From Athripsodes cinereus (Eukaryota; Arthropoda; Insecta; Trichoptera; Leptoceridae), in the NCBI GenBank assembly GCA_947579605.1, contig OX388317.1, forward strand, positions 23,331,384-23,395,383: DNA of 64,000 nt. The letters run 5' to 3'. The notes beneath the pieces were generated by a model. The model did not search any database, was not told where the DNA came from, and saw nothing but the letters and a program-made list of their open reading frames with translations. Below, piece after piece: positions 269 through 63,167 of this stretch (the first letter of the stretch is position 1; every line of letters starts with the position of its first letter). Made by a program: the position numbers and the translations under genes.

Positions 269-459
269 TTATGTATGTGCGTATGAACACTGGTGGATTC
301 AAGATGTTATATAATGGTTTTGAATTTTACAAACATAGAGAAAAGAACAATAGGGTGAGATGGGCGTGTGCTAGCAGAAGTGGCACTAAGTGCTCAGCTT
401 GTATTCACACATACGATGGAGTTGTTATACAAGTCAATAATTCACACAATCATATTTAA
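269..459 (+). CDS. mod(mdg4): FLYWCH terminal exon 1 (mod(mdg4)-type)
   Basis: Alternative last coding exon encoding one FLYWCH zinc finger, the module that in Mod(mdg4) mediates isoform-specific protein contacts at chromatin. The acceptor is ttttacAG; two bases (tt) complete a codon started in an upstream exon, followed by 62 codons and TAA. Seen: aromatic core F17/F19-Y20, W31-x-C33, C41, H59-N-H61 (C-x7-C-x17-H-x-H). An in-frame ATG sits two bases inside the exon, but sister exons lack one, so it is not taken as a start. A poly(A) signal AATAAA follows at 754-759. It is the first of the battery seen here; the constant BTB exons lie outside the window. The FLYWCH call is firm; the gene name rests on architecture. 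Confidence 0.88.
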
Positions 460-927
460 TTTCTGCAGAACACGCGAAAGGCTCACATTCCCATATACCG
501 AACATCGCCGTATTATAAATTAGAAGTTTTTGATGTTTCATAAGTAAATTTAATATTTCCGACCGACACTACTTAGGTGGAGTAAGTTCATGTTAAATTA
601 GTAATAGTACTTTCACGAGAGTTTATTGGTCGCAAGTTGGCCTCAAGATTCTTACGCCAATATTATAAGACCGGAAGCTCTTGAAAGCCAGCTAGTGACT
701 CAAGTTCAATGGACGCACTATTCAAAAGTACATCTTAAGTTTTTATATTATGAAATAAATTCATGAAAATTAAATGTAAAATGTTTTTATTTATCGAATG
801 TTTATATTTTAATTTTTTTAACCTTTTTTTTCTTCAATGAAACGTATGACAGTAACTTTGGAAGTTTTTTTATTTCAGTATGTCAACATTTACGCCGCTA
901 AGACGAACGTAACTATGACATTCGTTT
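460..927. other. Spacer after exon 1
   Basis: 3' flank of exon 1 with its AATAAA at 754-759, then AT-rich sequence up to the antisense reductase gene. A pyrimidine tract plus AG near 878 is not followed by an open frame. Nothing else recognised. Confidence 0.5.
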
Positions 928-1758
928 TTAATGCCAATCAGTAGAACGTTCCCAGTCTAGCAGTGTTTTGTCGTAATTCATGAATATTCCTTTGACAGAA
1001 TCATCTGCATCTAGAGCCAAATGTAGTGGGGCTGCTGCTCCTTGATCTGGTGTTAAGATTCCCATATGAGAAGACATGTCTGTATCAACATAACCAGGAT
1101 GCACACAGTTCACTGATATGTCTTTAGAACTATACTCTCTATGTTGTATGAAAGTCAAGGAACATAGTGCTACTTTTGACACTGCGTATGCACTTTTCCC
1201 CCACCCATCTTCTACGTTTTTACCATTCTTCGCTGACTCTACAAATTCATTCACGAGATTCGATAATTCTGCAACTGTCAGAGTTGAACTAGCGAACCGT
1301 TTTTTCTTATCTTCACTCGGTATTATTCCAAGCAGTCCTTGAGAACTGGAAATGTTAATGACTCGAGCTTTTTGTCTAAGAAGAGGGAACAAAATATTAC
1401 AAGTTGACAACACTGAGAAGTAGTTAACAAATGTTGTTCTTTCAGCTTGGATTCCAAAGTTTTCAGTGGAATTCCTTTTGAATGCTATGGCCGCGTTGTT
1501 GATCAGTATATCAATACCTCCATACTTTGTTTTTATGTGGTCATGGAATTTCTGAATACTTGTTGAATCAGTTATATCTAATTGATGGAACAATGGATTC
1601 AATCCCTTCTCTTTCAGTTTGTCTACAGCTACTTGTCCTCTTGTTTCATCTCTTGCTGTCAGATACACGTCTCCATCATATCTTCTACAAAGTCCTTTAA
1701 CGATAGCAAATCCGATTCCCTTATTAGATCCCGTTACTACTGCGACTTTTCTCTCCAT
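928..1758 (-). CDS. Short-chain dehydrogenase, carbonyl reductase (CBR1)-like, intronless
   Basis: NADPH-dependent SDR of the carbonyl reductase type, expected to reduce carbonyl compounds in the cytosol. The frame is open for 304 codons from 1842; I place the start at 1758 because the SDR fold begins there and the resulting 276 residues match the usual CBR1 length. Seen: cofactor motif T9-G10-x3-G14-x-G16, N87-N88-A89-A90, catalytic serine at about 138, Y191-x3-K195, then the P-G-x-V-x-T-D segment at 221-227. The insert between the serine and tyrosine is long, as in CBR1. It lies antisense in the intron between FLYWCH exons 1 and 2 and has no visible introns, so it may be a nested gene or a retrocopy. 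No frame damage is seen. The exact substrate cannot be read. Confidence 0.88.
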   Translation of the reverse strand: MERKVAVVTGSNKGIGFAIVKGLCRRYDGDVYLTARDETRGQVAVDKLKEKGLNPLFHQLDITDSTSIQKFHDHIKTKYGGIDILINNAAIAFKRNSTENFGIQAERTTFVNYFSVLSTCNILFPLLRQKARVINISSSQGLLGIIPSEDKKKRFASSTLTVAELSNLVNEFVESAKNGKNVEDGWGKSAYAVSKVALCSLTFIQHREYSSKDISVNCVHPGYVDTDMSSHMGILTPDQGAAAPLHLALDADDSVKGIFMNYDKTLLDWERSTDWH

Positions 1759-2182
1759 TTTGAGAACTGTTATTGTTGTTTTTAATATTCCATTTACGTA
1801 TTTATAACTCGTGTGATATTTTATATTCATCGTAATTATCAATATTGTGGTTTAATAAAAACATTTGAAATCATATTTTTCTCAACTGTTTTTTTTTTCA
1901 ATATTAGTTTTGTGGTAATGTATGTAATCATTCAATAGAATTAATATATTATTCAAAACCACCACATTGAACACATGTTAATTGAAGTATATAGATAAAT
2001 AAATCTGTTTAGTTGAATGACATGTCAATTTTAATACAATTTTGCGGTTTTTTTAGTATTACTTATTTTTAAAGAAGCGTGTTTTTACTTATTTTCAAAC
2101 TATAATTATTGTGATCTATCAAATAAAATAAAATAAATATTTATTATTATTTTGTTTTGTGTTACTGTTGAGTAAGACTAAC

Positions 2183-2225
2183 GCACGACCGGTTTCGCGG
2201 ACTCCGAGTTCGCATCATCAAGTGC
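2183..2225 (-). ncRNA. Hammerhead-ribozyme-like motif of a Penelope element
   Basis: Read on the minus strand: helix I strand GCAC, core TTGATGA, a GC-rich stem II (GCG..ACT/AGT..CGC), GAAA, a palindromic ACCGGT stem III, the cleavage triplet GTC, then GTGC pairing back to GCAC. This matches the minimal hammerheads known from Penelope-like retroelements, but core position C3 is T here, which should weaken or abolish cleavage. It lies just downstream of the GIY-YIG fragment in the same orientation. Confidence 0.6.
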
Positions 2226-2272
2226 TGATCTATACTGAATTAAACAAAACAAATACAAAAGTTCGTTAGGAT

Positions 2273-2791: not shown

Positions 2792-2970
2792 CCAAGTTTA
2801 TAGAATCTCAAAAAGGTAGTTTGATGATTGCAATGGGACCCTACAAATTTTATAAATATAGATTATTTGGTCCTAAGACAAGGTGGGTGTGCTCGAAAAA
2901 GGGATGCAAGGCTGTTGTTTATACTGTGGGTGAAAACATTGTGAGTGTTAAAGCGAATCATGACCATTAA
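2792..2970 (+). CDS. mod(mdg4): FLYWCH terminal exon 2
   Basis: Acceptor tttttacAG, leading dinucleotide cc, 58 codons, TAA. It carries no ATG near its start, which shows that these units are exons and not free genes. Ligands are C33, C38, H56 and H58; the loop between the two cysteines is only four residues (S-K-K-G), the shortest class in the array, shared only with the exon at 54620. The last pair reads H-D-H instead of H-N-H. Confidence 0.88.
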
Positions 2971-6240: not shown

Positions 6241-6434
6241 TTGAACCTCGCTTTATATTGTCAAAGAAAGGAAATAAAATGATCAAAATTGGCCGATACA
6301 CTTACTATAAATTCAAGATGTTTGGTATAAAGACAAGATGGGTTTGTTCCACACATAATAGGAAAGGTTGCAAAGCCAGTCTCTATACAGTTAATGAAGG
6401 AATCATTTCGATACGATCAGGACATAACCATTAG
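6241..6434 (+). CDS. mod(mdg4): FLYWCH terminal exon 3
   Basis: Strong acceptor tttttatttttcAG; leading dinucleotide tt; 63 codons; TAG. It has two extra residues before the finger compared with most sisters, so the ligands shift to C35, C43, H61 and H63. Y21-Y22 replace the usual F-Y aromatic pair. Retroposon-rich spacers lie on both sides (2.9-6.2 and 6.4-8.1 kb). No in-frame start lies within the exon before the zinc finger. Confidence 0.88.
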
Positions 6435-8061: not shown

Positions 8062-8246
8062 TGTCGTTCATGTTAAGTAAGATGGGAGCTAAAATACTCT
8101 GTATAGGAGAACATTCTTTCTACAAGCAAATTACTACAGGACCTAAGACGAGATGGACATGCCAAGGATCTAAAAATGGCTGCAAAGCTTGTGTACATAC
8201 AGTGGATGATGTTGTCGTTGTATACAAAGACTTTCACAATCATTAG
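8062..8246 (+). CDS. mod(mdg4): FLYWCH terminal exon 4
   Basis: Preceded by a long T/C tract ending ttttttAG; leading dinucleotide tg; 60 codons; TAG. Ligands are C33, C40, H58 and H60, with a six-residue cysteine loop. An extra cysteine at residue 13 and a C-V-H-T segment after A42 resemble exons 1, 5 and 6, placing it in the 5' subgroup of the array. Confidence 0.88.
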
Positions 8247-9315: not shown

Positions 9316-9509
9316 TAATGTTCGTAAGATTATCTAAAGGGAATTACAAGATTGTGTGCAATGACTACAGTTTCTATAAACATAGAGATAGTGCAGGCAA
9401 GACCAGGTGGATGTGCTCCCAAGTACAAAAGACAGGATGTAAGGCTTGCATCTACACGCTAGGAAATGTCGTAGTACGAGCCAAAATTGATCATAATCAT
9501 TCAATTTAA
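9316..9509 (+). CDS. mod(mdg4): FLYWCH terminal exon 5
   Basis: Acceptor tatttcAG, leading dinucleotide ta, 63 codons, TAA. Ligands are C33, C41, H59 and H61, followed by a two-residue tail (S-I). The segment K-H-R-D-S-x-G-K-T-R-W and the following C-I-Y-T are nearly the same as in exon 6, 0.85 kb downstream, so the two look like neighbouring tandem duplicates. An ATG lies just inside the exon, as in exon 1. Confidence 0.88.
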
Positions 9510-10352: not shown

Positions 10353-10540
10353 TTATATTCACTAAATCTATTAGAGGCAAAGACATGCTCCTATTAAATA
10401 ACTACAATTTCCGCAAACATAGGGATAGTGGGGAAAAGACCAGATGGTGGTGTTCGTACGTGCACAAGACGGCGTGCAAAGCCTGTATTTATACAGTAGG
10501 AGAAGTTGTATTACAAATCAAAAATTATCACAATCATTAG
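10353..10540 (+). CDS. mod(mdg4): FLYWCH terminal exon 6
   Basis: Acceptor tttcatttcAG; leading dinucleotide tt; 61 codons; TAG. W31-W32-C33 replaces W-x-C; the other ligands are C41, H59 and H61. The glycine that normally precedes the second cysteine is alanine here (K-T-A-C). It is the sister of exon 5. Part of its 3' flank (about 10560-10620) resembles the 3' flank of the exon at 14090, suggesting duplication units larger than the exon. Confidence 0.88.
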
Positions 10541-14089: not shown

Positions 14090-14277
14090 CTACGTTCGTC
14101 CAGTCACGCAGAGGACGTCCTCTGATAAAGTTGGGAGGATACACCTTCTACAAAAAGAGTACAAATGGGGTCAAGGAAAGATGGGTATGTTCGTCGCATT
14201 TCCACAAAAAATGTAAAGCGAGTCTCTACTGTGCTGATGGTACTATTTTAGTTATTAAGAATTTTCACAACCATTAA
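14090..14277 (+). CDS. mod(mdg4): FLYWCH terminal exon 9
   Basis: Acceptor atctttcAG; leading dinucleotide ct; 61 codons; TAA. Standard ligands C33, C41, H59 and H61, but the residue before C41 is Lys instead of Gly. With L-Y-C-A-D-G after the second cysteine it opens the dense, closely related subgroup that runs to 36.5 kb, marked by K-E-R-W before C33 and a third cysteine in L-Y-C. Confidence 0.9.
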
Positions 14278-15236: not shown

Positions 15237-15427
15237 CGATATTCGTGAAATCGAGAAAAACAGGAAAAACTTTGTTGAAGGTTGGCCAGTATACATATTA
15301 CAAGAGAAGCGAACGAAATAAAAGAGAGAGATGGTCTTGTTCCACGCATTCTAGAAAAGGATGTTACGCGGAATGTTGTTGTGTAGATGGGTACATAATC
15401 AGGCACAAAGGTGTCCACAATCATTGA
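15237..15427 (+). CDS. mod(mdg4): FLYWCH terminal exon 10
   Basis: Acceptor ttctttttAG; leading dinucleotide cg; 62 codons; TGA. One residue is inserted in the S-R-K-T-G region, moving the ligands to C34, C42, H60 and H62. The segment after C42 is unusually cysteine rich (Y-A-E-C-C-C-V-D-G), giving three extra thiols close to the zinc site. Confidence 0.88.
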
Positions 15428-16804: not shown

Positions 16805-16986
16805 GAATTTTTGGTACTTCACGTAAGGGCAATCCTTTGTTGACAGTTGGTAAGTACACGTTCTATAAGAAGAGTACATATGGAGCCAGGGAGAGATGGG
16901 TCTGTTCCAAAGATAAAAAGTGTAAGGCGAGCGCATACTGCGAACGTGGAGAAATAATTCACATTAAAAATAATCATATTCATTAA
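16805..16986 (+). CDS. mod(mdg4): FLYWCH terminal exon 11
   Basis: Acceptor catttacAG, leading dinucleotide ga, 59 codons, TAA. The ga start would make TGA if the upstream exon ended in T, so it constrains the shared donor. Cysteine loop of five (S-K-D-K-K): C33, C39, H57, H59; the last pair is H-I-H. The 3' flank carries ACCGGTTTCG at 17000, 13 bases after the stop, a motif shared with exons 15-18. It is the sister of exon 9 (Y-T-F-Y-K-K-S-T-x-G). Confidence 0.88.
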
Positions 16987-18352: not shown

Positions 18353-18540
18353 CGGAGTACGTAATGAGTAGAAAGAAAAGATTTTTAATCAAGCTTGGTA
18401 ATTATACCTTCTTTAAAACTCCATCCGTGGGAAATAAAGAACTCTGGAAATGTTCCACACACCATCGGAAAGGTTGCAAGGGCCACCTCTATCGTATGGA
18501 TGGATACATTATTCTCACAAATAATGTTCACAATCACTAA
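18353..18540 (+). CDS. mod(mdg4): FLYWCH terminal exon 12
   Basis: Acceptor tatttctAG, leading dinucleotide cg, 61 codons, TAA. Ligands C33, C41, H59 and H61 are intact. Odd points: the near-invariant Arg before W31 is Leu (K-E-L-W-K-C), R-K-K-R replaces the usual R-R-G turn, and G-H follows C41-K where A is normal. The finger should still fold, but its surface differs from its neighbours. Confidence 0.87.
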
Positions 18541-19311: not shown

Positions 19312-19499
19312 TGGAGTATGTAAAGTCACAACGAGGAAAAAGACTTATCAAACTTGGTGATTACACTTTCTGTCAACAAACAGTATGGAACAACAAAGAA
19401 CGCTGGATGTGTTCAACTCATCAAACTAGAGGTTGTCGGGCTAATCTGCACATTTTTAATGGAAATATACTCAGAAGTTACAATGTGCACACACACTGA
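19312..19499 (+). CDS. mod(mdg4): FLYWCH terminal exon 13
   Basis: Acceptor ttgtcttttAG; leading dinucleotide tg; 61 codons; TGA. Ligands C33, C41, H59 and H61, with a final H-T-H as in exon 14. The aromatic pair is F19-C20 and the third cysteine of the L-Y-C type is lost (L-H-I). Only 390 bases separate its stop from the next exon, the tightest spacing in the array. Confidence 0.9.
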
Positions 19500-19888: not shown

Positions 19889-20079
19889 GTTACAAATTTG
19901 TGAAGTCCAGAAAAGGAAAGGTCCTTATGCAGTTGGGTAAATATAAATTCTACAAATATCGCTCAATACACAATAAAGAACGTTGGAACTGCTCTACCCA
20001 CTTCAATAAAGGCTGCAGAGCCCATCTATATTGCATCGAAGGAGAAATAATCATCAATAAAAATAAACACACCCATTAA
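19889..20079 (+). CDS. mod(mdg4): FLYWCH terminal exon 14
   Basis: Acceptor ttttttAG; leading dinucleotide gt; 62 codons; TAA. One extra N-terminal residue shifts the ligands to C34, C42, H60 and H62 (H-T-H). The finger body, W-N-C-S-T-H-F-N-K-G-C, is close to exons 18, 19 and 21. The open frame also runs upstream into hydrophobic intron sequence, which is not coding. Confidence 0.9.
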
Positions 20080-20942: not shown

Positions 20943-21130
20943 CTGAATATGTACAGTCACGAAGAGGAACAAGTCTTGTAAAACTTGGTAATTACACATT
21001 TTGCAAACAACGAATCACACACGGTAAAGAGCGATGGCTCTGTTCCACTAATTACGGTAAAGGTTGCAAAGCTCATCTCTATATTATGGATGGATTTATA
21101 CTTAAAAGCAAGAATGTACATAACCACTAA
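20943..21130 (+). CDS. mod(mdg4): FLYWCH terminal exon 15
   Basis: Acceptor ttgatttcAG, leading dinucleotide ct, 61 codons, TAA. Ligands C33, C41, H59 and H61. It resembles exon 13 (F19-C20, no third cysteine, final x-N-V-H). Its 3' flank carries ACCGGTTTCG at 21141-21150, ten bases after the stop. The N-terminal part E-Y-V-Q-S-R-R-G is the array consensus. Confidence 0.9.
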
Positions 21131-22109: not shown

Positions 22110-22297
22110 CTCAATATATCGTATCTAGAAGGGGAACTACACTCATAAAACTTGGAAAGTATACTTATTTTAGAATTCGCGCTACTAAATTGAAAGAGCG
22201 TTGGAATTGTTCCACTCACCACTCCAGAGATTGTAAAGCTTATCTTTATTGTATAGATGGAGTAATTGTTGTCAAGAATAGCATTCATAACCATTAA
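22110..22297 (+). CDS. mod(mdg4): FLYWCH terminal exon 16
   Basis: Acceptor tttgttttAG; leading dinucleotide ct; 61 codons; TAA. Ligands C33, C41, H59 and H61; the residue before C41 is Asp instead of Gly (S-R-D-C). It is the closest relative of exon 17, 0.46 kb downstream, with matching C-K-A-Y and x-I-H-N-H ends. An ACCGGCTTCG variant of the shared 3' motif lies at 22345-22354; AATAAA follows at about 22434. Confidence 0.9.
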
Positions 22298-22757: not shown

Positions 22758-22945
22758 TGGAATACATTTTATCCCGAAGAGGAAGCACACTAATAAAACT
22801 TGGAATGTATACATTTTTCAAATATCGAACTACTAATAGTAAAGAACGTTGGATCTGTTCTACTCACCATTCTAAAGGTTGCAAAGCGTACATTTATTGT
22901 GTAGATGGATTAATTATTCTCAAGAAAAACATTCACAACCATTAA
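22758..22945 (+). CDS. mod(mdg4): FLYWCH terminal exon 17
   Basis: Acceptor tttgttttAG, leading dinucleotide tg, 61 codons, TAA. Ligands C33, C41, H59 and H61. This copy is close to the consensus of the central subgroup (S-R-R-G-S-T-L-I-K-L-G, K-E-R-W-I-C-S-T-H). The 3' flank has TCCGGTTTCG at 22994-23003 and AATAAA at about 23122. Exons 16 and 17 also share 3' flank wording (C-A-T-T-C-A-type repeats around the stop), which points to a tandem duplication of more than the exon. Confidence 0.92.
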
Positions 22946-23584: not shown

Positions 23585-23989
23585 TATAATGGAAGTTTAT
23601 ACTTGAAATAAAGCAATCAGTGTTTTTCTGAAATAATATCAAAAATTTATTAAAAACATTATTTAAACTAAAGAAACTAAATATTACTAAAAATAAAATA
23701 AACAATAATAAAACAATTACCTGAAATAATATCAAAAAAACAACATTTAAAGTCTTTACTTCAGGTCTTTCAAAACTAACACAAAATTACAAACAAAATT
23801 ATTTTACCAACTGTCAAAACAAAAATTCTAAATTCAAATAAATAAACTAAAGGAAATCACTCCTATGAGTAGGTAGGTGGTTTTCTTTACAAATATATCA
23901 TTGCTGTTATAAAGTAAATCCTTCCAAAATAAAGTGTCGTGTTTAAAAAGGCGAATCTGTCAAAAAAAAAACTGAGCTACACCCCAAAA

Positions 23990-24240
23990 AATTCCACAGT
24001 AAGCAATATTTTGCATTAATAATTCCACAGTGAGCAATATTTTACATTACTAATTCCACAGTAAGAAATATTTTGCATTAATAATTCCACAGTTTGCAAT
24101 ATTTTGCATTAATAATTCTACAGTAAGCAATATTTTGCATTAATAATCCCACAGTAAGCAATATTTTGCATTAATAATTCCACAGTAAGCAATATTTTGC
24201 ATTAATAATTCCACAGTAAGCAATATTTTGCATTGATAAT
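23990..24240 (+). repeat. 31-bp minisatellite, about 8 units
   Basis: Tandem units with core CCACAGTAAGCAATATTTTG followed by CATTAATAATT, period 31. It lies upstream of the FLYWCH acceptor within the duplicated block; the twin array is at 28834-29084. Confidence 0.85.
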
Positions 24241-24348
24241 TACATATCATATAATTACTAAATCACTTGTAAACAAGTGGATAAGTTTGAGAAGAATGCA
24301 ACATGTAAAATGTTTTCTGAATTAATTTATTTTGTGTTATATTTTTAG

Positions 24349-24536
24349 TGACATATGAGACTTCACAACGAGGCAAAACACTCATAAGAATAGGGGAGCA
24401 TAAATTTTTCAAACACACTACTCGTAATTTTAAGGAACGTTGGAACTGTTCAACACATTTTACGAAAGGATGCAAAGCTCATCTTTATTGCATTGACGGA
24501 ATTATTATTGTCAATAAAAATTTTCACAACCATTAA
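24349..24536 (+). CDS. mod(mdg4): FLYWCH terminal exon 18 (left copy)
   Basis: Acceptor tatttttAG, leading dinucleotide tg, 61 codons, TAA. Ligands C33, C41, H59 and H61; H17 replaces the usual Tyr in the G-x-Y core. It is an ordinary member of the central subgroup, closest to exons 14 and 21, so it is host sequence and not a viral gene. An exact second copy lies 4844 bases downstream (29193). The shared 3' motif is present as ACCGGTTTAG at 24554. Confidence 0.9.
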
Positions 24537-24625
24537 GTAATGATAGTCACGTAACCGGTTTAGTTAATTAGGTAATTGAAAAATAAAAGTACGACATCAA
24601 TCATATAAGAATGACCATACAATAT

Positions 24626-27613
24626 TTAAAAATAAACTGCAATCATCAAGAAAAAAATAGTGAATTTGGGCTGTAAATAGGTAGAATTATTTGTTTTTTG
24701 GAAATCGGTAGATTTTATAATTTTTTTATAGTTAAAATTATGTGTATTCAAATCTTCTTTTGTAAATTTTGATTTTAATTCTGGTGGTAAAATATTAACA
24801 TTTTCGCCTTCCAAAAGGTATTTTGGAGCAAACTTAGTGACTGTGTGTTCTGTTTCATTATATTTTTCTACACATTTCTGTGCAACAGTAGTCCATGCTG
24901 TTTTCCTATCACTTTCATTTATTTTACATCTTATTTTATTTACTAAGGTTTGATTTAACCTTTCATTGATCCCATTCGAAAAAGGTGAATCCACAGCAGT
25001 GAAAACTATTCTTATGTTTTCCATTTTTAGAAATTCTTTACATTCTTTTGAATTTATGCCAGGATATTGGTCTGTTAGTACCATATCAATATTGTAGTTT
25101 TGTGTCACATTTTTTATCAGTTTAATAAAATCACTTGCGGTTTGGTTTTTCGATGTGAGAATGTAAGCATATCTCGTGAAATGATCTACCAGCAGATGTA
25201 AATATTTTTTTGTTGATCGTGATCCTCCAAACCCTCCTATGGTATCAATAGATATAATTTCAAATGGGCGTGTAGCTGGTCCTAAATGTGACATTAAACC
25301 ATATTTTGATTTCCTCCTTGATTTGTTTTTTATACAAATTTCACACTCATCGCAAATTTGTTTAATGTTTGTGATGATATTCTTTGCAGTATAGCATGGT
25401 GTTATTTTATTTATCATTTGTGTTCTTCCAATGTGGCAGTAGGTATCATGGACATCTTTTATTAGTGTTTTACTATATTCTTCTGATAGTATGATTTTTT
25501 TCCTTTTTTTATACATTTTGTAGTAAATATCATTCTCCAATATAAATTTGCTATTTTGTAGTTCCATATTCATGTGTTGGTCATTTTTTATATCTTGCAG
25601 GTTTACTAAATTTACTACTTTTATAAAATCGTCATTATTTTCATTTGGTTCTAGAACTGGATTTCTGCTTAAACAGTCTGCTTCTTGATTTAATCTTCCT
25701 GGGTTATATTTTATCTTAAAATTATATTGAGATAAATAATACATCAAATCCCCTAATTCCTCATCAGTTCTGGCCTTGATGTTCATATTTTCTAATGGTT
25801 TATGATCTGAGTACACTATAAATTCTTTTCCCATTAGCCAGTGCTGCCAATATTTCACAGCTTCTTTTATTGCCAGACATTCTAGATAAATTGCCTTCTT
25901 CTTTTTTTGTGCTTCAGTTAATTTTTTTGAAAAATAAGCAACCGGCTTACTGTTTTCGTTTTTATCTTCTTGTTTCAACACTGCTCCCACTCCTTTGATA
26001 CTAGCATCCGTGTAAATGTATATTGGTAATTCAGGGTCAAAAATATTCAGGATTGGCTCTGAACACAGCAATTTTTTTATTTTTTCAAATGATTTCTGGC
26101 ATTTGTCGGACCATATGAATTTCACATCTTTTCGTAATAAATTGTGTAACGGGTCCATAATAATTGCGCTGTTTGGTAAAAATTTATGATGAAAATTTAT
26201 TTTTCCTAAGAATTGACGTATATTTTTTCTTGTTTCTGGTATTGGAAAATTTTTCACAGCGGTTAAATAATCTTTCAGAGGTCTTACTGAATTATTTTGT
26301 ATTATGTGACCTAAATATTTGGCATAATTATTTGCAAAAGTACATTTGGAAAATTTTAGTCTAAAACCTTCTGTTATTATTGCCTCCAGTAGTCTTGTTA
26401 GATGTAGTATATGTTCTTGAAAAGTTTTCGAAAAAATTAAAATATCGTCTATAAAATTTACTGCAAAATCAGAGAGTTTGTATTTCCTTATGATGTTACT
26501 CAATATTCTTTGGAAGATAGCTGGAGCAGTCTTTAATCCAAACGGAAGACACGTCCATTGATAATGGCCTTCTTGTGTAACAAATGCAGTTTTGTGTCTA
26601 TCTTCAATCTTCAAAGGTATCGACCAAAATGCTGAATTTACATCAAAAGTAGAAAAATATTTGCAGTTTACAGTTTTCACCATCAAATCCTCAATTAATG
26701 GAAATGGTTGTGATTGAGGTACGACAATTTTATTCAATTCTCTGAAATCTATACATAATCTTGTTTTCTTGTTATCTTCTTTTTTATAAGCCAGAGTTAC
26801 TGGAGCAGCAAATGGGCTATAAGATTCCTCAATCAGATTCTTCTTTAATAGTTGTGATATTTGATCTTCTATTTCTTTTCTATCTTCAGCTGTGCATCTA
26901 TATGGACGTTTGTAACAGTATTTATCCACCATTAAATCAATATGAGCCTCATAATCTCGCACAGTACCTATGTCATATTTATCTTTTGCAAAGACTGATT
27001 TGTATTTTTTTATCAACTTATCGATTTGTGATTTTTCATATAAATCTAGATGGTTTACAAACATTTCAAAACCATCTGAGTTAATATGTTCATTGAAATT
27101 TATTTCACATTGGTTTGATTGTTTGTTTTCTCGTTGTAATACCTCAGTGGGTAGAAAAACATCTTCTTTATTCTTGTCACCTAGTACATCAGGAATATCG
27201 ACATTTTGAATATTTGAAGTTTCTCTTTCATTTAAAGTTAATATGTAATTTTCTTTTTTATCATTACATTGCATTATCTTTAATTCTTCATTTTGTATTA
27301 ATCTGAAGTTTTTGATGCAATCCAATCCAATTAGAAAATCATAATTAAAATTTTCATTATCTATTATGAAAATATCCATAATCTTTTCAATATTGAAAAT
27401 CTTTATTTTAAGTGTTACCATACCTTTAGTTTTCTTCTCACCATTAATAGTTTTCAAGTTAACCATTTGTATATCTCTTGTATCTGGTTTTTGTTGTATT
27501 TTTAATAATTTAGCATTAATTAATGATACATTTGAACCCGAATCATAAATTCCAGAAACATTTAAAGCATCATTTATTATTAACTTTACTTTTATTAATG
27601 GTGGCACATCTAG
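24626..27613 (-). CDS. Ty3/gypsy-type pol (protease, RT, RNase H, integrase)
   Basis: About 995 codons, read in the -1 frame relative to gag; translation probably enters it by frameshifting at 27613-27619. Domain order in the protein: aspartic protease (Y-D-S-G-S at about 21), reverse transcriptase (R-L-C-I-D-F, then F-I-D-D as the catalytic box), RNase H (Y-T-D-A-S), integrase zinc region (H..C-D-E-C-E-I-C) and DDE core (S-I-D-T, L-T-D, N-E-R). This order is Ty3/gypsy. No stop or frameshift interrupts it. Homology-like sequence ends right at the repeat boundary (24749); the last 40 residues are encoded by the repeat and look unrelated, so the natural C-terminus is probably lost. Confidence 0.9.
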   Translation of the reverse strand, partial: LDVPPLIKVKLIINDALNVSGIYDSGSNVSLINAKLLKIQQKPDTRDIQMVNLKTINGEKKTKGMVTLKIKIFNIEKIMDIFIIDNENFNYDFLIGLDCIKNFRLIQNEELKIMQCNDKKENYILTLNERETSNIQNVDIPDVLGDKNKEDVFLPTEVLQRENKQSNQCEINFNEHINSDGFEMFVNHLDLYEKSQIDKLIKKYKSVFAKDKYDIGTVRDYEAHIDLMVDKYCYKRPYRCTAEDRKEIEDQISQLLKKNLIEESYSPFAAPVTLAYKKEDNKKTRLCIDFRELNKIVVPQSQPFPLIEDLMVKTVNCKYFSTFDVNSAFWSIPLKIEDRHKTAFVTQEGHYQWTCLPFGLKTAPAIFQRILSNIIRKYKLSDFAVNFIDDILIFSKTFQEHILHLTRLLEAIITEGFRLKFSKCTFANNYAKYLGHIIQNNSVRPLKDYLTAVKNFPIPETRKNIRQFLGKINFHHKFLPNSAIIMDPLHNLLRKDVKFIWSDKCQKSFEKIKKLLCSEPILNIFDPELPIYIYTDASIKGVGAVLKQEDKNENSKPVAYFSKKLTEAQKKKKAIYLECLAIKEAVKYWQHWLMGKEFIVYSDHKPLENMNIKARTDEELGDLMYYLSQYNFKIKYNPGRLNQEADCLSRNPVLEPNENNDDFIKVVNLVNLQDIKNDQHMNMELQNSKFILENDIYYKMYKKRKKIILSEEYSKTLIKDVHDTYCHIGRTQMINKITPCYTAKNIITNIKQICDECEICIKNKSRRKSKYGLMSHLGPATRPFEIISIDTIGGFGGSRSTKKYLHLLVDHFTRYAYILTSKNQTASDFIKLIKNVTQNYNIDMVLTDQYPGINSKECKEFLKMENIRIVFTAVDSPFSNGINERLNQTLVNKIRCKINESDRKTAWTTVAQKCVEKYNETEHTVTKFAPKYLLEGENVNILPPELKSKFTKEDLNTHNFNYKKIIKSTDFQKTNNSTYLQPKFTIFFLMIAVYF

Positions 27614-28416
27614 TTTTTTGGATTCTTTTCATTCAATTCTATTTCCAATTCTGAGTTATTTACAGTTACAATAGAATTTTGACTTTTAAACCAGCAATTT
27701 TCTTCAGAATGGTAACGTTTTCCTTTTTTCTCATTAGCACAGATTTTGCATGGTTTTTTGTATTCATTTTTATTTAATTGAGTGTCAGGATATGAAACAC
27801 TTTTTTTAACATATTTATTCTTCCCAACAAGATATTCTAATTTTCCTAATGCATTGTATAGATCTTCCGTTCCTTGTAAAGCTTCTCTATCAATTTTATC
27901 AGCCACATAATTTGGTAGGCCAAATGCTATGAGGTCTACAAGTGTCCCAGTATCAATTGATTTTCTCACTCTCAGCAATAATTTTTCTTTTTTTAAAGCA
28001 TACTCAATTAACGGGCCTGTTTGATATTTAAAAGCGAGAGCGTATCTAATAGGTGACCATCCTTTGTTTTCAAAAGTCACGCAAAAACTTTTTTCCCAGT
28101 CTTCCCATCTCGATTCCACTGTATGTTTAATCAACATACAGCTGTACCAATCTTGACTGGAGTATTCCAAAAAGGCTTTTAATATTTCAATTTTTTTTAT
28201 ATCATCCTCGATTTGAAATCGTTTACATTCTAAATTAAAATCTTTCATCCACTGGCATGCATTTGTATTTCTGCCTGTAAATTTTTCAATCATGAATTTC
28301 TCTGCAATTTTTCCCAAATTTGGATTTTCATATTTTGTTTGCTTATCTTCAACTAATTTTGTTAACAGTTTTTCCAACGTTTCATTTAGTTTATCCATGT
28401 TGTTAAATATTATCAA
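27610..28416 (-). CDS. Retrotransposon gag
   Basis: 268 codons from 28416; a second in-frame ATG six codons in (about 28398) is an equally likely start. The sequence is helical and charged; near its C-terminus lies a zinc-knuckle-like C-x2-C-x9-H-x4-C, wider than the standard CCHC spacing. It ends in TAG at 27612-27610, directly after a slippery heptamer. It forms the particle protein of the element. The clade could not be assigned from the sequence alone. Confidence 0.82.
   Translation of the reverse strand: MIIFNNMDKLNETLEKLLTKLVEDKQTKYENPNLGKIAEKFMIEKFTGRNTNACQWMKDFNLECKRFQIEDDIKKIEILKAFLEYSSQDWYSCMLIKHTVESRWEDWEKSFCVTFENKGWSPIRYALAFKYQTGPLIEYALKKEKLLLRVRKSIDTGTLVDLIAFGLPNYVADKIDREALQGTEDLYNALGKLEYLVGKNKYVKKSVSYPDTQLNKNEYKKPCKICANEKKGKRYHSEENCWFKSQNSIVTVNNSELEIELNEKNPKN
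27613..27619 (-). promoter_or_regulatory. -1 ribosomal frameshift site (A AAA AAC)
   Basis: On the minus strand the last gag codons read CCA AAA AAC TAG. A AAA AAC is a canonical X XXY YYZ heptamer in the gag frame; a one-base backward slip gives CTA GAT GTG and enters the pol frame without a stop. A downstream pseudoknot was not evaluated. Confidence 0.8.
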
Positions 28417-28833
28417 TAAATGTTGTTTTATAATGGAAGTTTATACTTGAAATAAAGCAATCAGTGTTTTTCTGAAATAATATCAAAAATTTATTAAAAA
28501 CATTATTTAAACTAAAGAAACTAAATATTACTAAAAATAAAATAAACAATAATAAAACAATTACCTGAAATAATATCAAAAAAACAACATTTAAAGTCTT
28601 TACTTCAGGTCTTTCAAAACTAACACAAAATTACAAACAAAATTATTTTACCAACTGTCAAAACAAAAATTCTAAATTCAAATAAATAAACTAAAGGAAA
28701 TCACTCCTATGAGTAGGTAGGTGGTTTTCTTTACAAATATATCATTGCTGTTATAAAGTAAATCCTTCCAAAATAAAGTGTCGTGTTTAAAAAGGCGAAT
28801 CTGTCAAAAAAAAAACTGAGCTACACCCCAAAA

Positions 28834-29084
28834 AATTCCACAGTAAGCAATATTTTGCATTAATAATTCCACAGTGAGCAATATTTTACATTACTAATTC
28901 CACAGTAAGAAATATTTTGCATTAATAATTCCACAGTTTGCAATATTTTGCATTAATAATTCTACAGTAAGCAATATTTTGCATTAATAATCCCACAGTA
29001 AGCAATATTTTGCATTAATAATTCCACAGTAAGCAATATTTTGCATTAATAATTCCACAGTAAGCAATATTTTGCATTGATAAT
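28834..29084 (+). repeat. 31-bp minisatellite, right copy
   Basis: Same eight units, in the same order of variants, as 23990-24240, which supports a very recent duplication. Confidence 0.85.
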
Positions 29085-29192
29085 TACATATCATATAATT
29101 ACTAAATCACTTGTAAACAAGTGGATAAGTTTGAGAAGAATGCAACATGTAAAATGTTTTCTGAATTAATTTATTTTGTGTTATATTTTTAG

Positions 29193-29380
29193 TGACATAT
29201 GAGACTTCACAACGAGGCAAAACACTCATAAGAATAGGGGAGCATAAATTTTTCAAACACACTACTCGTAATTTTAAGGAACGTTGGAACTGTTCAACAC
29301 ATTTTACGAAAGGATGCAAAGCTCATCTTTATTGCATTGACGGAATTATTATTGTCAATAAAAATTTTCACAACCATTAA
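29193..29380 (+). CDS. mod(mdg4): FLYWCH terminal exon 19 (right copy)
   Basis: Same acceptor, phase, 61 codons and stop as exon 18; the translations are the same at every residue. If both copies are real, the gene has two terminal exons giving indistinguishable isoforms, one on each side of a retrotransposon. If the duplication is an assembly artefact, only one exists. Confidence 0.85.
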
Positions 29381-29593
29381 GTAATGATAGTCACGTAACC
29401 GGTTTAGTTAATTAGGTAATTGAAAAATAAAAGTACGACATCAATCATATAAGAATGACCATACAATATTTAAAAATAAACTGCAATCATCAAGAAAAAA
29501 ATAGTGAATTTGGGCTGTAAATAGGTAGAATTATTTGTTTTTTGGAAATCGGTAGATTTTATAATTTTTTTATAGTTAAAATTATGTGTATTC

Positions 29594-36306: not shown

Positions 36307-36494
36307 TATCATACGTGAGGTCGCAAAGAGGAAGGACGTTGATAAAAATAGGATGTTACACATTTTACAAATACCGAACAACTAATTTGAAAGAGCGTTG
36401 GCATTGCTCTACTCATTTTAATAAAGGCTGTAAAGCACATCTCATTTGTATAGGAGGAAATATTATGGTTTGTAAAAATATACATAATCATTAA
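36307..36494 (+). CDS. mod(mdg4): FLYWCH terminal exon 21
   Basis: Acceptor catgttttcAG; leading dinucleotide ta; 61 codons; TAA. Ligands C33, C41, H59 and H61. Relative to exon 20: C16 for Arg, H32 for Asn, a different cysteine loop (S-T-H-F-N-K-G, as in exon 14), G50 for Asp and a cysteine late in the finger. About 52 of 61 residues match exon 20, with nearly all differences in the second half. Confidence 0.9.
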
Positions 36495-37370: not shown

Positions 37371-37561
37371 ATGTAGGACAGTTTGTATATTCGAAGAGAG
37401 GAACCATCATATTGAAGATTGGCCAGTACACATTTTTTAAGAACCACGTCAGAGGGCTAAAAACTCGTTGGGCCTGCTCCCATACCAAGAAAGGCTGTAA
37501 AGTCAGCGTCCATACCACAGAAGAGGTCATTTTATCAATCAAGAATATCCACAATCACTAA
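37371..37561 (+). CDS. mod(mdg4): FLYWCH terminal exon 22
   Basis: Acceptor atgttttAG, leading dinucleotide at, 62 codons, TAA. Ligands C35, C42, H60 and H62; the six-residue cysteine loop S-H-T-K-K-G lacks the usual S-T-H order. With K-T-R-W and V-H-T-T-E-E it belongs to the outer (T-V-G) subgroup, so the subgroup boundary falls between 36.5 and 37.4 kb. Confidence 0.9.
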
Positions 37562-40136: not shown

Positions 40137-40330
40137 CAAATATGAAATTTGAATTGTCCCGTAACGGTAATTTAATGATTACGCTACATCAATACAAATT
40201 CTTCAGGCATCGCAGTAAAGGTTCTAGGATCAGATGGGCTTGTTCATTTAACAGGAAAACTAAATGTAATGCTGTGTTGAGTACCATAGATGGAATGCCG
40301 GTTTACGTTAAAAACACACACAACCATTGA
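40137..40330 (+). CDS. mod(mdg4): FLYWCH terminal exon 23
   Basis: Acceptor aattttcAG; leading dinucleotide ca; 63 codons; TGA. Ligands C35, C43, H61 and H63; Lys precedes C43. Cysteine loop S-F-N-R-K-T-K, similar in type to exon 24. The pre-finger segment (L-S-R-N-G-N-L-M-I-T) departs from the G-K-x-L-I-K norm. Proline in M-P-V-Y interrupts the last strand. Confidence 0.88.
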
Positions 40331-41029: not shown

Positions 41030-41226
41030 GTAAAATCAGTTACGTAAAAACCAGAAATAATACCACCATAATCACTGTGAACAATAACAGGTTCTTCAGG
41101 AACTGCGTGTGGGGGAAGAAGGTTCGCTGGGTGTGTTCATTCAGTAAAAAGACTGGCTGCAGAGTATGTTTACATACTGTGGATGATAAAGTCGTCGCAA
41201 TAAAACATACACACAATCATGAATAG
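41030..41226 (+). CDS. mod(mdg4): FLYWCH terminal exon 24
   Basis: Acceptor aaatttcAG; leading dinucleotide gt; 64 codons; TAG. Ligands C35, C43, H61 and H63, then one Glu. Extra cysteines at residues 25 and 46. The R-V-C-L-H-T-V-D-D stretch groups it with exon 4. The usual G-x-Y before the aromatic pair is N-N-R, a marked loss in an otherwise intact finger. Confidence 0.88.
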
Positions 41227-44951: not shown

Positions 44952-45139
44952 CATATTTCTCGTTTGATGGTCATGGTAAAAGGATAATAAAATTAGCACA
45001 TTACAAATTCTGTCAACATACATCATCAGGCCGCAAAACGAGATGGAGATGTTCTAGACACTTTGTCAGGTGCAGAGCCGTGGTTCATACACTAGGGGAA
45101 ATTATATTGAGTATTAATAATGAACATAATCATTCCTAA
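44952..45139 (+). CDS. mod(mdg4): FLYWCH terminal exon 26
   Basis: Acceptor atatttcAG; leading dinucleotide ca; 61 codons; TAA. Ligands C33, C40, H58 and H60, then Ser. The loop S-R-H-F-V-R has Arg in place of Gly before C40. F-D-G-H-G replaces the S-R-R-G turn. The 3' flank (about 45170-45360) resembles that of exon 27, so the two are duplicates that have since diverged in the coding part. Confidence 0.88.
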
Positions 45140-46535: not shown

Positions 46536-46723
46536 CAAGATTTGTTCTGTCTCGACGTGGTAAAAAATTAATAAAATATGGAAAATACACTTTTAGTAAA
46601 CATGTTAAAAAAGGGCGCAGAACCAGATGGAGATGTTCCACATACAATGATAAGGGATGTAAAGCTGTGATACATGCGGAGGAAGATGTGATCGTCATGA
46701 TCAGGAATGACCATAATCATTGA
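46536..46723 (+). CDS. mod(mdg4): FLYWCH terminal exon 27
   Basis: Acceptor ttgttttcAG, leading dinucleotide ca, 61 codons, TGA. Standard ligands C33, C41, H59 and H61. It is very basic before the finger (R-R-G-K-K-L-I-K, K-H-V-K-K-G-R-R-T-R-W) and acidic in the last strand (A-E-E-D). It shares R-W-R-C with exon 26. Confidence 0.9.
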
Positions 46724-48650: not shown

Positions 48651-48895
48651 CACAATTTGTCACCTCGCGTCAGGGAAAAGTGTTGGTAAAACTGGGTGAC
48701 TATACTTATTACAAGATCTTGGAGAGTGGATTAAAGTGTAGATGGGCTTGCTCCACACACAAGTGCAGAGGGTGCAAAGCCTTTGTACGCACTGTAGGTC
48801 GAACCATTGTCAGCTTTTCGGACATACACAATCATTTACCTGGTGCTTACTATAGACGAATGAGAGAACAACCTCTGGAAGATGTCTTTACCTAA
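48651..48895 (+). CDS. mod(mdg4): FLYWCH terminal exon 28, extended tail
   Basis: Acceptor attatttcAG; leading dinucleotide ca; 80 codons; TAA. Ligands C33, C41, H59 and H61, with extra cysteines at 29 and 38. Unlike nearly all sisters, translation continues 19 residues past the finger (L-P-G-A-Y-Y-R-R-M-R-E-Q-P-L-E-D-V-F-T), a tail with Tyr/Arg then acidic residues. It could be an added docking peptide or simple stop-codon loss. Confidence 0.9.
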
Positions 48896-51082: not shown

Positions 51083-51360
51083 CGAGTGTTGTCGAAACAG
51101 AACACGGATATTATTTTATGATGTTCGGCAAGTTTACTTTCTTTATGAACAAAGACTATGGAGAGAAACTCCGCTGGGGTTGTTTAACTCATCACGATAA
51201 GGGATGTAACGCCTTCTTGTATACGGTCCGTGAAAAAATTATATTCCAATGCAATAAACACAACCATGAAGCAGAAGAAGTCAATTTCGAGCAGTACGAC
51301 ATGTATTTGGCTGAGAAAAAGAAAAAACAAAAGCAAATTAAGAAACAGACATCTCTGTAA
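51083..51360 (+). CDS. mod(mdg4): FLYWCH terminal exon 29, long lysine-rich tail
   Basis: Acceptor gtatttttAG; leading dinucleotide cg; 91 codons; TAA. Ligands C33, C41, H59 and H61. It is the most diverged finger: T-E-H-G-Y-Y-F replaces S-R-R-G, M21-N22 follow the aromatics, and Leu replaces Ser after C33. A 30-residue tail follows, acidic at first (E-A-E-E-V-N-F-E) then K-K-K-K-Q-K-Q-I-K-K, which could serve as a nuclear localisation or DNA-contacting segment. Confidence 0.88.
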
Positions 51361-52033: not shown

Positions 52034-52104
52034 TTTTTTTTAAAAAAAAAGTGTAATATACAATTAGATAAATACTATAAATTGCATTTTTGTTTTAGTT
52101 TTAG

Positions 52105-52292
52105 CCGAGTACTCCGTGTCCAAGAGAGGAAATCCACTGCTGAAACACAAAGACTATACATTCTTTAAACAAAGAACTGTGAATGGGAGAACTAGGTGGG
52201 GATGTTCCACACATTATTCCAAAGGCTGTAAGGCACACGTATTCACCATAGGGGATATTATTTTACAAATCAGGGACTACCATAACCATTAA
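52105..52292 (+). CDS. mod(mdg4): FLYWCH terminal exon 30
   Basis: Two acceptors lie close together (ttgttttAG at 52098 and ttttAG at 52104). Only the second gives the common phase (leading dinucleotide cc), so it is chosen; the first would add six bases and keep the frame, giving two extra residues. 61 codons, TAA. Ligands C33, C41, H59 and H61. No ATG precedes the finger in this exon. Confidence 0.88.
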
Positions 52293-54619: not shown

Positions 54620-54801
54620 GTGAGTTCATACAATCTCGAAAGGGAACACAATTATTGAAGTTTGGAAATTATAGATTTTGTAAACATTTAATCAGAGAAA
54701 ATAACAAAATACGTTGGAGGTGTACAACCAGTATGTGTAAATCCTCTATTCTTACTATAGATAACTTTGTTATTCGTACAAATATACGCCACAATCATTG
54801 A
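54620..54801 (+). CDS. mod(mdg4): FLYWCH terminal exon 31
   Basis: Acceptor aactttcAG; leading dinucleotide gt; 59 codons; TGA. Ligands C34, C39, H57 and H59; the cysteine loop is four residues (T-T-S-M). After C39 comes K-S-S where K-A is normal; K-S at this place marks the last subgroup (exons 31-34). The exon is complete though short. Confidence 0.88.
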
Positions 54802-55333: not shown

Positions 55334-55339
55334 TAAGTA

Positions 55340-56462: not shown

Positions 56463-56650
56463 CGATATACAAATTAACTCGACGTGGTACTCGGATGCTC
56501 CAATATAATGGTTATAATTTCACAAAGCACAGAGTTAAGAATTCGAAAACAAGGTGGAGATGCGCAAAGCAACACATATGTAAATCTTTTTTATACACGG
56601 TTGGTGATGTCGTTATGCACACTTACATAAAGCATAATCACCCTGCTTGA
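56463..56650 (+). CDS. mod(mdg4): FLYWCH terminal exon 32
   Basis: Acceptor tttttttcAG, leading dinucleotide cg, 61 codons, TGA. Cysteine loop of five (A-K-Q-H-I): C33, C39, H57, H59, then P-A. The Y14-N-G-Y-N-F19 aromatic core and C-K-S are shared with exons 33 and 34. Left member of the tandem pair. Confidence 0.9.
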
Positions 56651-57498: not shown

Positions 57499-57686
57499 CG
57501 ATATACAAATTAAGTCGACGTGGTACTCGGATGCTCCAATTTAATGGTTATAATTTCACAAAGCACAGAGTTAAGAATTCGAAAATTAGGTGGAGATGCG
57601 CAAAGCAACACATATGCAAATCTATTTTATACACGCTTGGTGATGTCATTATACACGCTAACATAAAGCATAATCACCCTGCTTGA
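57499..57686 (+). CDS. mod(mdg4): FLYWCH terminal exon 33
   Basis: Acceptor tttttttcAG, leading dinucleotide cg, 61 codons, TGA. Eight residues differ from exon 32, mostly conservative (T5S, Y14F, T29I, F42I, V45L, V49I, M51I, T53A), with C33, C39, H57 and H59 unchanged. Retention of every ligand and of the frame after duplication suggests that both copies are under purifying selection. Confidence 0.9.
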
Positions 57687-60564: not shown

Positions 60565-60752
60565 CAATATACAAATTATCTCGGGTTGGTACTCAGATTC
60601 TAGAATACGAAGGCTATAATTTCATTAAACACGTTATTCGTAGCTCTAAAACTAGATGGAGATGCTCAAAGCACAAAATATGTAAATCCATTTTATACAC
60701 GATTGGAGACGTCATTGTACACACTAACATTAAACATAATCACGCCGTTTGA
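60565..60752 (+). CDS. mod(mdg4): FLYWCH terminal exon 34
   Basis: Acceptor gttttttccAG; leading dinucleotide ca; 61 codons; TGA. C33, C39, H57 and H59 with the loop S-K-H-K-I, then A-V. Third and most diverged member of the 32-34 set; V7 replaces Arg in the R-R-G turn. Its stop context TGATTAATT is the same as in exons 32 and 33. Confidence 0.9.
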
Positions 60753-60953: not shown

Positions 60954-61065
60954 CCATCACATACATACCTTACAAGTGGGATAGCCAGCGTACTAACTGC
61001 CAGTAATATGGAGATTTGCCTCTCCGTTCCAACAAAATAATAAGATATTTATAATGATTGGCATG
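60954..61065 (+). repeat. Dispersed repeat family D, start
   Basis: TGCCATCACATACATACCTT, then TAACTGCCAG and TTCCAACAAAATAATAAGAT: the 5' half of a family D copy whose 3' half has been amplified into the satellite that follows. Confidence 0.6.
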
Positions 61066-62016
61066 CCTAAACTCTAAAATGTAGGTGTTAATTATCTTAC
61101 ACGTGTAGTTTCAAGACAAATACCGTTCACAACTATTTACAGAAAAGAGTAGGATACCTATTCTTTACCGGGAGCTTCACGCGGTATATAATATACCTAC
61201 TCAAAACTCTAAAATGTAGGTGTTAATTATCTTACACGTGTAGTTTCAAGACAAATACCGTTTACAACTATTTACAGAAAAGAGTTAGATACCTATTCTT
61301 TACCGGGAGCTTCACGCGGTATATAATATACCTACTCAAAACTCTAAAATGTAGGTGTTAATTATCTTACACGTGTAGTTTCAAGACAAAAACCGTTTAC
61401 AACTATTTACAGAAAAGAGTTAGATACCTATTCTTTACCGGGAGCTTCACGCGGTATATAATATACCTACTCAAAACTCTAAAATGTAGGTGTTAATTAT
61501 CTTACACGTGTAGTTTCAAGACAAATACCGTTTACAACTATTTACAGAAAAGAGTTAGATACCTATTCTTTACCGGGAGCTTCACGCGGTATATAATATA
61601 CCTACTCAAAACTCTAAAATGTAGGTGTTAATTATCTTACACGTGTAGTTTCAAGACAAATACCGTTTACAACTATTTACAGAAAAGAGTTAGATACCTA
61701 TTCTTTACCGGGAGCTTCACGCGGTATATAATATACCTACTCAAAACTCTAAAATGTAGGTGTTAATTATCTTACACGTGTAGTTTCAAGACAAATACCG
61801 TTTACAACTATTTACAGAAAAGAGTTAGATACCTATTCTTTACCGGGAGCTTCACGCGGTATATAATATACCTACTCAAAACTCTAAAATGTAGGTGTTA
61901 ATTATCTTACACGTGTAGTTTCAAGACAAATACCGTTTACAACTATTTACAGAAAAGAGTTAGATACCTATTCTTTATCGGGAGCTTCACGCGGTATATA
62001 ATATACCTACTCAAAA
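61066..62016 (+). repeat. 135-bp satellite, 7 units
   Basis: Unit starts at 61066, 61201, 61336, 61471, 61606, 61741 and 61876. Units are nearly the same (a few substitutions in unit 1 and the last). Each contains TTTACCGGGAGCTTCACGCG, the 3' end of family D. No ORF runs through the array. Confidence 0.92.
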
Positions 62017-62269
62017 CGTACACCTGACACGATGAAGAAACTATATGAATTATATGTGTATAGAGAGGTTAAGGAAACCCATAATACTCGTATGCTAGAA
62101 GTCAATAAATGTTCATTGACAGAGGATCCACTAAAAGATTATACAACTCATTGTGAAGTTATCTTTTTTATTTATCTATTCTCTAGGTACTTTGAATTTA
62201 TGAGCTAAACCATGAAGTATGTCATCGATGCGTTTACTTTTTTTATAACGAAGCAAGATGACACGTGTT

Positions 62270-62700
62270 ACTTTTATGAAAAGATGCGCTAGTTACCCCA
62301 TTTTTGTATTTACATTTCTATTAAAATCTTTGTTCATATATTTTTTTTTTATTTCCCACCAACATCCTTGAAGTTTTGTGTTTGATATAAAAAGGAAAGA
62401 AACTCCAAAATGTCTTATTTTTACTTCATATTTTATACATGACTGCATTTTAAAAGAGGATCGTCCTAGCTGCCGCCGTCCAGCAAAAAACAACGCTCTT
62501 TTTGGTCAACTATCATTAGACGTTCTCTAAAATGATCCAGTTAAGACAATCTTCTCTCTCATCACTCGAGACACTTTTCTCACATAATACAGTGCTCCTT
62601 TAAATAATGAATCAGAGTTTTATGAATTTGTGGAAAGACGTGACTCAATTAATGTAACATCGCTCTGAATGGAGGAAGCTTGTTCCTTCTCATTGCTTCC
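62270..62700 (+). repeat. Diverged repeat pair, right copy
   Basis: Partner of 58980-59380, upstream of the last exon just as the left copy precedes exon 34, so it may mark an old duplication of exon plus flank. Confidence 0.45.
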
Positions 62701-62976
62701 GAGAAAAACGCTGGAGAGCAAAAAAAGAGGAATTGTAAAATTTAACATTTGTTTGTGTTAACACTTTAAGCACTAATTTAGAATGTTTTCAATAATATCT
62801 TCCAACTTTGTTGTATTCCCATTATTTTGTAGTCTTGAAGAAGTTCTCTAAAAAAATGTCCACGAGTGTGGGCCAAAACTAAAGGGTATAGTTAAAATAC
62901 AGCAGATGTCATTTAGAATAATTATAAAACTGATCATTTGAAAATTTAATCATAAGTTATTTATGTATTTTAGTAG

Positions 62977-63167
62977 CTGAATACGTGATGTCACAAAGAG
63001 GAAGGCGTCTCCTTATCTTTGGAGAACATAGATATTTCAAACATACAGCAAATGAAAATAAAACTCGGTGGGCATGTTCCACTCACTACTCCAAAGGATG
63101 CAGAGCCTGTATTACTACCTGGGATGGCATCATTATATCCGCCAAAATATATCATAATCATGTATGA
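62977..63167 (+). CDS. mod(mdg4): FLYWCH terminal exon 35
   Basis: The acceptor region gtattttAGtAG has two AGs three bases apart; the second gives the common phase directly (leading dinucleotide ct), and the first would add one codon. 62 codons, TGA. Ligands C33, C41, H59 and H61, then Val. S-Q-R-G and S-T-H-Y-S-K-G recall the central subgroup, but C-I-T-T-W-D-G is unique, with a second Trp in the finger. Confidence 0.88.

Follow-up and report, generated by a model that had tools for sequence, protein, structure and literature searches.

Thirty-two FLYWCH terminal exons in a 64-kb insect window as part of a probable mod(mdg4) battery of at least 348 3′ exons

How many alternative 3′ ends can one gene hold, and how would they be joined to its common 5′ part? 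These questions are raised by a stretch of 64,000 nucleotides, C13:23331384-23395383 (C13 is contig OX388317.1), here called the window, for which a first-pass annotation had proposed a battery of terminal exons of the mod(mdg4) type. We conclude, with a probability of about 0.93, that the window is part of the variable 3′ region of this insect's mod(mdg4), a gene whose constant 5′ part would be spliced to one of several hundred 3′ ends. To follow the locus beyond the window, a genome of 716 Mb was searched.

Results

FLYWCH terminal exons of the window

A profile hidden Markov model (HMM), iterated from the window sequence, detected 32 FLYWCH segments, each with E < 1e-20 and all on the plus strand. 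The first-pass annotation had counted thirty-five exons; this number was rejected, as tblastn with all 32 exons against the window gave nothing further above noise (the best extra hit, with E = 0.014, was antisense). The Pfam FLYWCH domain (PF04500) was matched by all 31 distinct exons, one of the 32 being an exact duplicate. By profile, the only solved relative was the FLYWCH finger 2rpr (E 1.4e-6).

Acceptors were assigned as the best-scoring AG within 90 bases upstream, chosen blind to the reading frame. With this rule and no frame requirement, all 32 exons follow an AG and begin with two bases that complete an upstream codon, as had been claimed. The same rule applied at 3000 random positions of the window gave 1017, 1017 and 900 for the three phases. 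In the 32 exons, the base preceding the acceptor AG is C in 19 cases and T in 13, and from -20 to -4 before the acceptors T accounts for 64% of the bases compared to 36% window-wide. The junction codon has the form GNN and would encode Ala in 15 exons, Val in 12, Gly in 4 and Asp in 1. Every exon ends in a stop codon (TAA 19, TGA 9, TAG 4), none of the 32 lies on the minus strand, and the outer limits given earlier, 269..63167, match the first exon base and the last stop base exactly. That the exons contain no donor was found to be nearly true, although not absolutely, since an internal GTRAGT occurs in 3 of the 32.

A BTB donor upstream of the window

The first-pass annotation had expected the BTB exons in the flanking contig, and we found them 382 kb upstream of the window on the same strand. 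The BTB domain at C13:22948600 (+) is 70% identical to that of fly Mod(mdg4) (E 1e-49) and is the best of the 40 matches listed. The next full-domain matches among these 40 reach at most 48% identity, and none of the 40 falls inside the FLYWCH array. Two constant exons, C13:22948600-22949362 and 22949448-22949522, with limits read from the sequence and not from RNA, encode a Tramtrack-group BTB domain and a linker, together 279 amino acids plus one base G. The open frame of the first runs to a GTAAGT donor in phase 1, and the second ends in GAC GCA CAA G|GTAGGA, likewise in phase 1. Joining the 279-residue constant part to each window exon gives a frame that stays open to the stop in 32 of 32 cases.

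The uniform phase had been presented as only expected if all exons are spliced to one shared donor. Phase alone is no proof of this, because descent by duplication also yields a common phase. The shared donor itself has stood up, since a phase-1 donor site was found that fits all 32 window joins, and it is on this site in the flanking contig, not on the uniformity of phase, that the case rests.

The same junction in other species

The chimera predicted from the constant part and window exon 15 gave 3135 database matches, of which the best 120 were taken as relatives. They represent 28 named species plus two unnamed sources, and align with 78-100% of the chimera at 64-82%; according to precomputed Pfam domains, BTB (PF00651) and FLYWCH (PF04500) are both present in 113 of the 120. 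In all 120, GGAVGDAQ is followed by Val (43), Gly (29), Ala (18), Asp (16) or Glu (14). These are exactly the residues of GNN codons, and the junction deduced from DNA is therefore the junction in the proteins listed for other species. The Danaus proteins P0017, P0020 and P0093 are among the relatives that carry it. The 120 are database entries of related species rather than independent events.

Four defining features are present, namely an orthologous BTB constant part, many FLYWCH 3′ exons, one donor phase and acceptors on both strands, and the locus is a member of mod(mdg4). The first-pass annotation had called it the lepidopteran counterpart of the fly gene, of which the mod(mdg4) part stands and the lepidopteran part is uncertain. 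The constant part is 81-83% identical to that of 25 species, with 24 Lepidoptera and the caddisfly Arctopsyche grandis alike. A constant-part tree groups this insect with Arctopsyche grandis against the 24 Lepidoptera, with a support of 99 in the Shimodaira–Hasegawa-like approximate likelihood ratio test (SH-aLRT), whereas the site patterns are balanced, 19 sites being common with the caddisfly and 22 with Lepidoptera. Two sites were judged informative with the fly sequence, one of which favors the caddisfly and the other Lepidoptera. Most likely this insect is a caddisfly or a moth of an early-branching line, and not from any of the lepidopteran groups sampled.

One of the minus-strand exons next to the donor (22953387) has counterparts of 59-61% identity in 4 of the 120 proteins (Aphomia, Loxostege, Choristoneura and Pieris), which is only a hint that it might be older than the window exons. 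A region-limited protein-database search with a window exon returned none, and it was not used, as the control for the known 59-61% relatives was also empty.

Size and layout of the locus

That the battery is larger than the window was borne out. At least 348 FLYWCH exons lie at 22.953-25.336 Mb of C13 (2.38 Mb), 307 on the plus and 41 on the minus strand. Counted from the donor, 36 minus exons are followed by 118 plus exons up to 23.50 Mb, a gap of 1.15 Mb (23.50-24.65 Mb) in which no FLYWCH exon is found among the matches listed, and 194 further exons, 5 of them on the minus strand. The absence of opposite-strand exons thus holds for the window only; locus-wide there are at least 41, with 36 beside the donor.

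The count combines seven genome listings made with different FLYWCH queries, each the best 150 of 350-431 candidates, with direct scans; same-strand matches within 120-150 bases were merged. The first five listings regained 32 of 32 window exons and 9 of 9 exons of a 20-kb far sample, but few of the divergent minus exons (14 of 36), and because of this the total is a lower bound. In a recapture estimate, 130 of 141 plus-strand matches of one listing were already known, which gives about 318 plus exons; the figure is rough, as the listings are not independent. The 348 leave out 20 matches outside C13, two FLYWCH exons at 19.16 Mb and one C13 match at 26.09 Mb.

We read 103 of the 348 exons as DNA, consisting of the window (32), the minus block (36), the far sample (9), spread-out plus exons (15), stray minus exons (5) and others (6). 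Here the acceptor was required to have an open frame to the domain. Acceptors in differing phases had been named beforehand as evidence that would speak against the proposal. Two lead bases were found in 102 of the 103 exons, on both strands and over 2.4 Mb, and in the single exception an in-phase AG scores almost as well (9 compared to 10). As controls, an unrelated FLYWCH gene on C21 has its best acceptor in phase 0, and the two FLYWCH exons of a mod-like gene at C13:19.16 Mb have two lead bases. The domains of 102 of the 103 differ in sequence, and a relative of at least 90% identity exists for only 2 of 103, which are the exact pair. Judged from these differences, the exons read are not assembly copies, save possibly the exact pair.

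The mod-like gene mentioned above (C13:19156822-19175589, minus strand) has its BTB domain spread over two exons, which are followed on that strand by at least two FLYWCH exons with the same acceptor phase. It looks like a small paralogue that could splice in cis. Separately, FLYWCH matches of equal score (56.6 bits) occur at 17 places on 12 chromosomes, including C13:26086080, and 16 of the 17 share a 129-residue open frame; these are probably copies of a mobile element that carries a FLYWCH protein.

Exon evolution and selection

Close relatives in the window tend to be neighbors. For 14 of the 32 exons the closest window relative lies next door, and the mean distance is 5.4 ranks compared to 11.0 when shuffled. 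On a tree of the 103 exons, the window group requires 5 changes compared to 27 in shuffles; this tree was built from 61 columns, with 55 weak branches among the 99 inner ones. None of the 103 exons deviates at either Cys or at the first His, and Trp is kept in 101. Median identity to the nearest of the 103 is 57% for the window, 44% for the minus block and 48% for the rest, and only 10 of the 103 have a nearest relative at 70% identity or more. In two genome listings, the domain is free of internal stops in 150 of 150 and 149 of 150 matches listed. The exon finder scans open segments, and broken exons would be under-counted in the direct scans. Eight exon pairs were compared for the ratio of nonsynonymous to synonymous divergence (dN/dS), one of which was saturated. 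Of the seven usable pairs, six gave values of 0.05-0.32, with dS > 1.7 in two of the six, and at the level of sequence purifying selection is shown for several pairs.

Tandem duplication seems to enlarge the battery, and at one site or more a retrotransposon marks the junction. Within an identical stretch of 858 bp, exon 16 matches exon 17 in every base. The duplicated region (23585..29593) consists of a long terminal repeat (LTR) at 23585-23891, 858 bp of native sequence with exon 16, an internal part at 24750-28428 on the minus strand, a second LTR at 28429-28735 and again 858 bp with exon 17. The internal part belongs to a truncated, Ty3/Gypsy-like, high-copy element, a 1041-bp test piece of which scored at 99-100% at 40 places of the genome, the window's own included. 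One candidate explanation, that the exon sits inside an LTR, with perfect repeats of 1165 bp around a Ty3/Gypsy-like gag-pol, was rejected, since an element copy on C19 shows an LTR of about 307 bp and the other 858 bp are native to the array. The order of LTRs and exon units agrees with a tandem duplication and a later loss between LTRs, and a duplication with the element at its junction would explain the repeats better than an LTR-borne exon. The perfect identity of the copies suggests that the event is very recent. No clear target-site duplication was found at the element (23585-29593). A copy of the element also matches at 23557401, inside the 1.15-Mb stretch in which no FLYWCH exon was found.

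Proposed mechanism and alternative explanations

In the mechanism that we propose, the constant BTB part would be spliced to any one of several hundred 3′ ends that consist of a single exon. Every such exon would bring an acceptor, two bases completing the GNN codon, a zinc finger of the FLYWCH type and a stop, and a different BTB-FLYWCH protein would result from each join. Through their FLYWCH ends, these proteins may then bring a common BTB multimer to different sites on DNA or to different partners. If the minus exons are used with this donor, they must be joined in trans, because the opposite strand cannot be on the donor's transcript. For the plus exons, joining in trans from transcripts of their own is probable by comparison with fly mod(mdg4). 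In Drosophila, trans-splicing from independent promoters is reported for all isoforms (PMC12692577; in trans also PMC11727487), and elements of intron 4 promote trans-splicing and non-poly(A) termination (PMC11727487, PMC12692577).

Several observations weigh against assigning the window to such a battery. The donor, the exon limits and the joins are known here from DNA alone. An in-frame ATG upstream of the acceptor is present in 7 of the 32 window exons, with none in the other 25, which leaves room for a few starts of their own. AATAAA occurs within 100 nt of the stop in 5 of 32 exons compared to 21% at random, which is no enrichment of a poly(A) signal, and no word is common to the spacers beyond what shuffles give, so that no promoter element is visible. 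Because of these two results, the sequence reveals no signals by which acceptor transcripts would begin and end; the 3′ exons may still have promoters of their own that share no spacer motif. Relatives within the minus block are not clearly clustered (9 of 36 next door; a mean of 10.4 ranks compared to 12.3 shuffled, with 7.9 in the lowest shuffle). One very young exon pair has a dN/dS of 1.15. Finally, nothing close to the window exons occurs among the 120 isoforms listed, where the best match reaches 54% identity, a comparison weakened by the list having been drawn with a single window exon.

Could the exons instead be small FLYWCH genes that are independent of each other and have starts of their own? 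The seven upstream ATGs would allow this, but 25 exons lack one, the acceptor phase is uniform where one third is the null expectation, no BTB match among the 40 listed lies within the array, and joined BTB-FLYWCH proteins are listed from other species. We regard independent genes as scarcely credible. It is also improbable that the locus is mostly a graveyard, in which few exons are used and the majority are unexpressed duplicates kept open by their youth. Such a graveyard would show what is seen in the window, namely one exact duplicate, a second pair that differs by about 5-6%, and positional clustering of close relatives. Yet most of the exons read are not young copies and are intact all the same, as seen from the median identities and the 10 of 103 at 70% or more, from the domains without stops, from the low dN/dS in six of seven pairs and from an acceptor and phase kept in 102 of 103.

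The alternative with a small but real chance of being right is one giant cis-spliced gene, in which one primary transcript of up to 2.4 Mb would contain the plus exons, alternative splicing and polyadenylation would select among them, and only the minus exons would be joined in trans. It is consistent with the 307 of 348 exons that lie on the donor's strand and downstream of it, and with the donor and acceptors that share one strand in some Diptera (PMC4667647). It has to accommodate 36 minus exons between the donor and the plus array, which need trans-splicing if used with this donor, the missing enrichment of poly(A) signals and the Drosophila isoforms that are all reported in trans from independent promoters (PMC12692577). 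A mod(mdg4) battery served by one BTB donor, probably in trans on both strands, remains the reading that we prefer.

Positions of the window features

The exon positions follow from the in-window HMM and the best-acceptor rule. On the plus strand, the series begins with exon 1 at 269..459 (acceptor AG|TT, 62 amino acids and stop) and continues with exons 2 to 8 at 2792..2970, 6241..6434, 8062..8246, 9316..9509, 10353..10540, 14090..14277 and 15237..15427. Exons 9 to 14 are found at 16805..16986, 18353..18540, 19312..19499, 19889..20079, 20943..21130 and 22110..22297, before exon 15, used for the chimera query, at 22758..22945. The exact duplicates, exons 16 and 17, occupy 24349..24536 and 29193..29380, after which exons 18 to 24 stand at 31513..31700, 36307..36494, 37371..37561, 40137..40330, 41030..41226, 44952..45139 and 46536..46723. 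Longer tails are present in exon 25 (48651..48895, 80 amino acids) and exon 26 (51083..51360, 91 amino acids). They are followed by exon 27 at 52099..52292, exon 28 at 54620..54801, exon 29 at 56463..56650, which is a young duplicate of exon 30 (57499..57686), exon 31 at 60565..60752 and exon 32 at 62974..63167.

Between exons 1 and 2, an opposite-strand frame of a short-chain dehydrogenase (928-1851, minus strand) runs for 307 residues with no visible intron. A 135-bp tandem repeat in seven near-identical copies lies between the last two exons (61069-62017). We take the frames 5117-5554, 17472-17780, 43419-43976 and 59479-60078 to resemble C-terminal remnants of non-LTR retrotransposon proteins; no Pfam match was obtained in three of the four, which were the three scanned.

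Discussion

The fly mod(mdg4) locus covers some tens of kb, compared to 2.4 Mb here. Dscam1 also holds a large set of alternative exons in one gene, but these are internal, number about 95 and are spliced in cis. The 3′ ends of Drosophila lola are of the C2H2 and not the FLYWCH type, and its 3′ exons are not known to be homologous to those described here. What lola has in common with this locus is a trans-spliced gene with constant and variable exons (PMC4667647). Drosophila mod(mdg4) shares the BTB constant part, the FLYWCH 3′ exons and variable exons on both strands, and differs in number, with at least 31 fly isoforms (PMC4667647) compared to at least 348 exons here.

In mod(mdg4)-like loci of Danaus plexippus, Plutella xylostella and Bombyx mori, a BTB donor is likewise accompanied by FLYWCH acceptors on both strands, with 40, 41 and 9 acceptor combinations, respectively (Kong et al. 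2015, PMC4667647); the published combinations in six species are 31, 9, 40, 41, 35 and 34. The Danaus locus covers 550 kb with 24 acceptor genes on both strands, compared to at least 348 exons in 2.38 Mb here; 33 of its isoforms take opposite-strand exons, and reverse transcription PCR confirmed 14 of 18 tested isoforms (PMC4667647). Database entries named 'protein tramtrack, beta isoform isoform Xn' in Lepidoptera and LOC143919269 in Arctopsyche grandis also combine BTB, in most cases, with FLYWCH. Their name follows another BTB gene, and the highest isoform number in the best 120 rows is X50. No report of such a battery in the hundreds was found in searches of part of the open-access literature. 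Flies and Lepidoptera are known to have this kind of system, and its size here appears to be new and far larger than any that we found described, a judgment resting on published and database counts that are possibly underestimates. More tentatively, and with some doubt on our side, this might be the largest terminal-exon battery of any gene, in which hundreds of BTB-FLYWCH proteins would be trans-spliced from one donor over 2.4 Mb and which would still be growing through tandem duplication, with fast turnover between lineages.

Standard annotation, with isoforms up to X50 in the best 120 rows, may understate such loci. If the insect is a caddisfly, trans-spliced mod(mdg4) would extend to Trichoptera. 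The locus has at least 348 acceptors, of which 41 lie on the strand that rules out cis-splicing, and it offers a natural setting in which to test how a single donor reaches hundreds of partners. It also raises the question why one insect needs so many FLYWCH proteins. Fast turnover is what one would predict if the fingers track shifting targets in the genome, for instance transposons. In Drosophila, Mod(mdg4) variants repress the telomeric retrotransposon HeT-A (PMC9723646), and a role of the battery in genome defence is therefore a testable idea.

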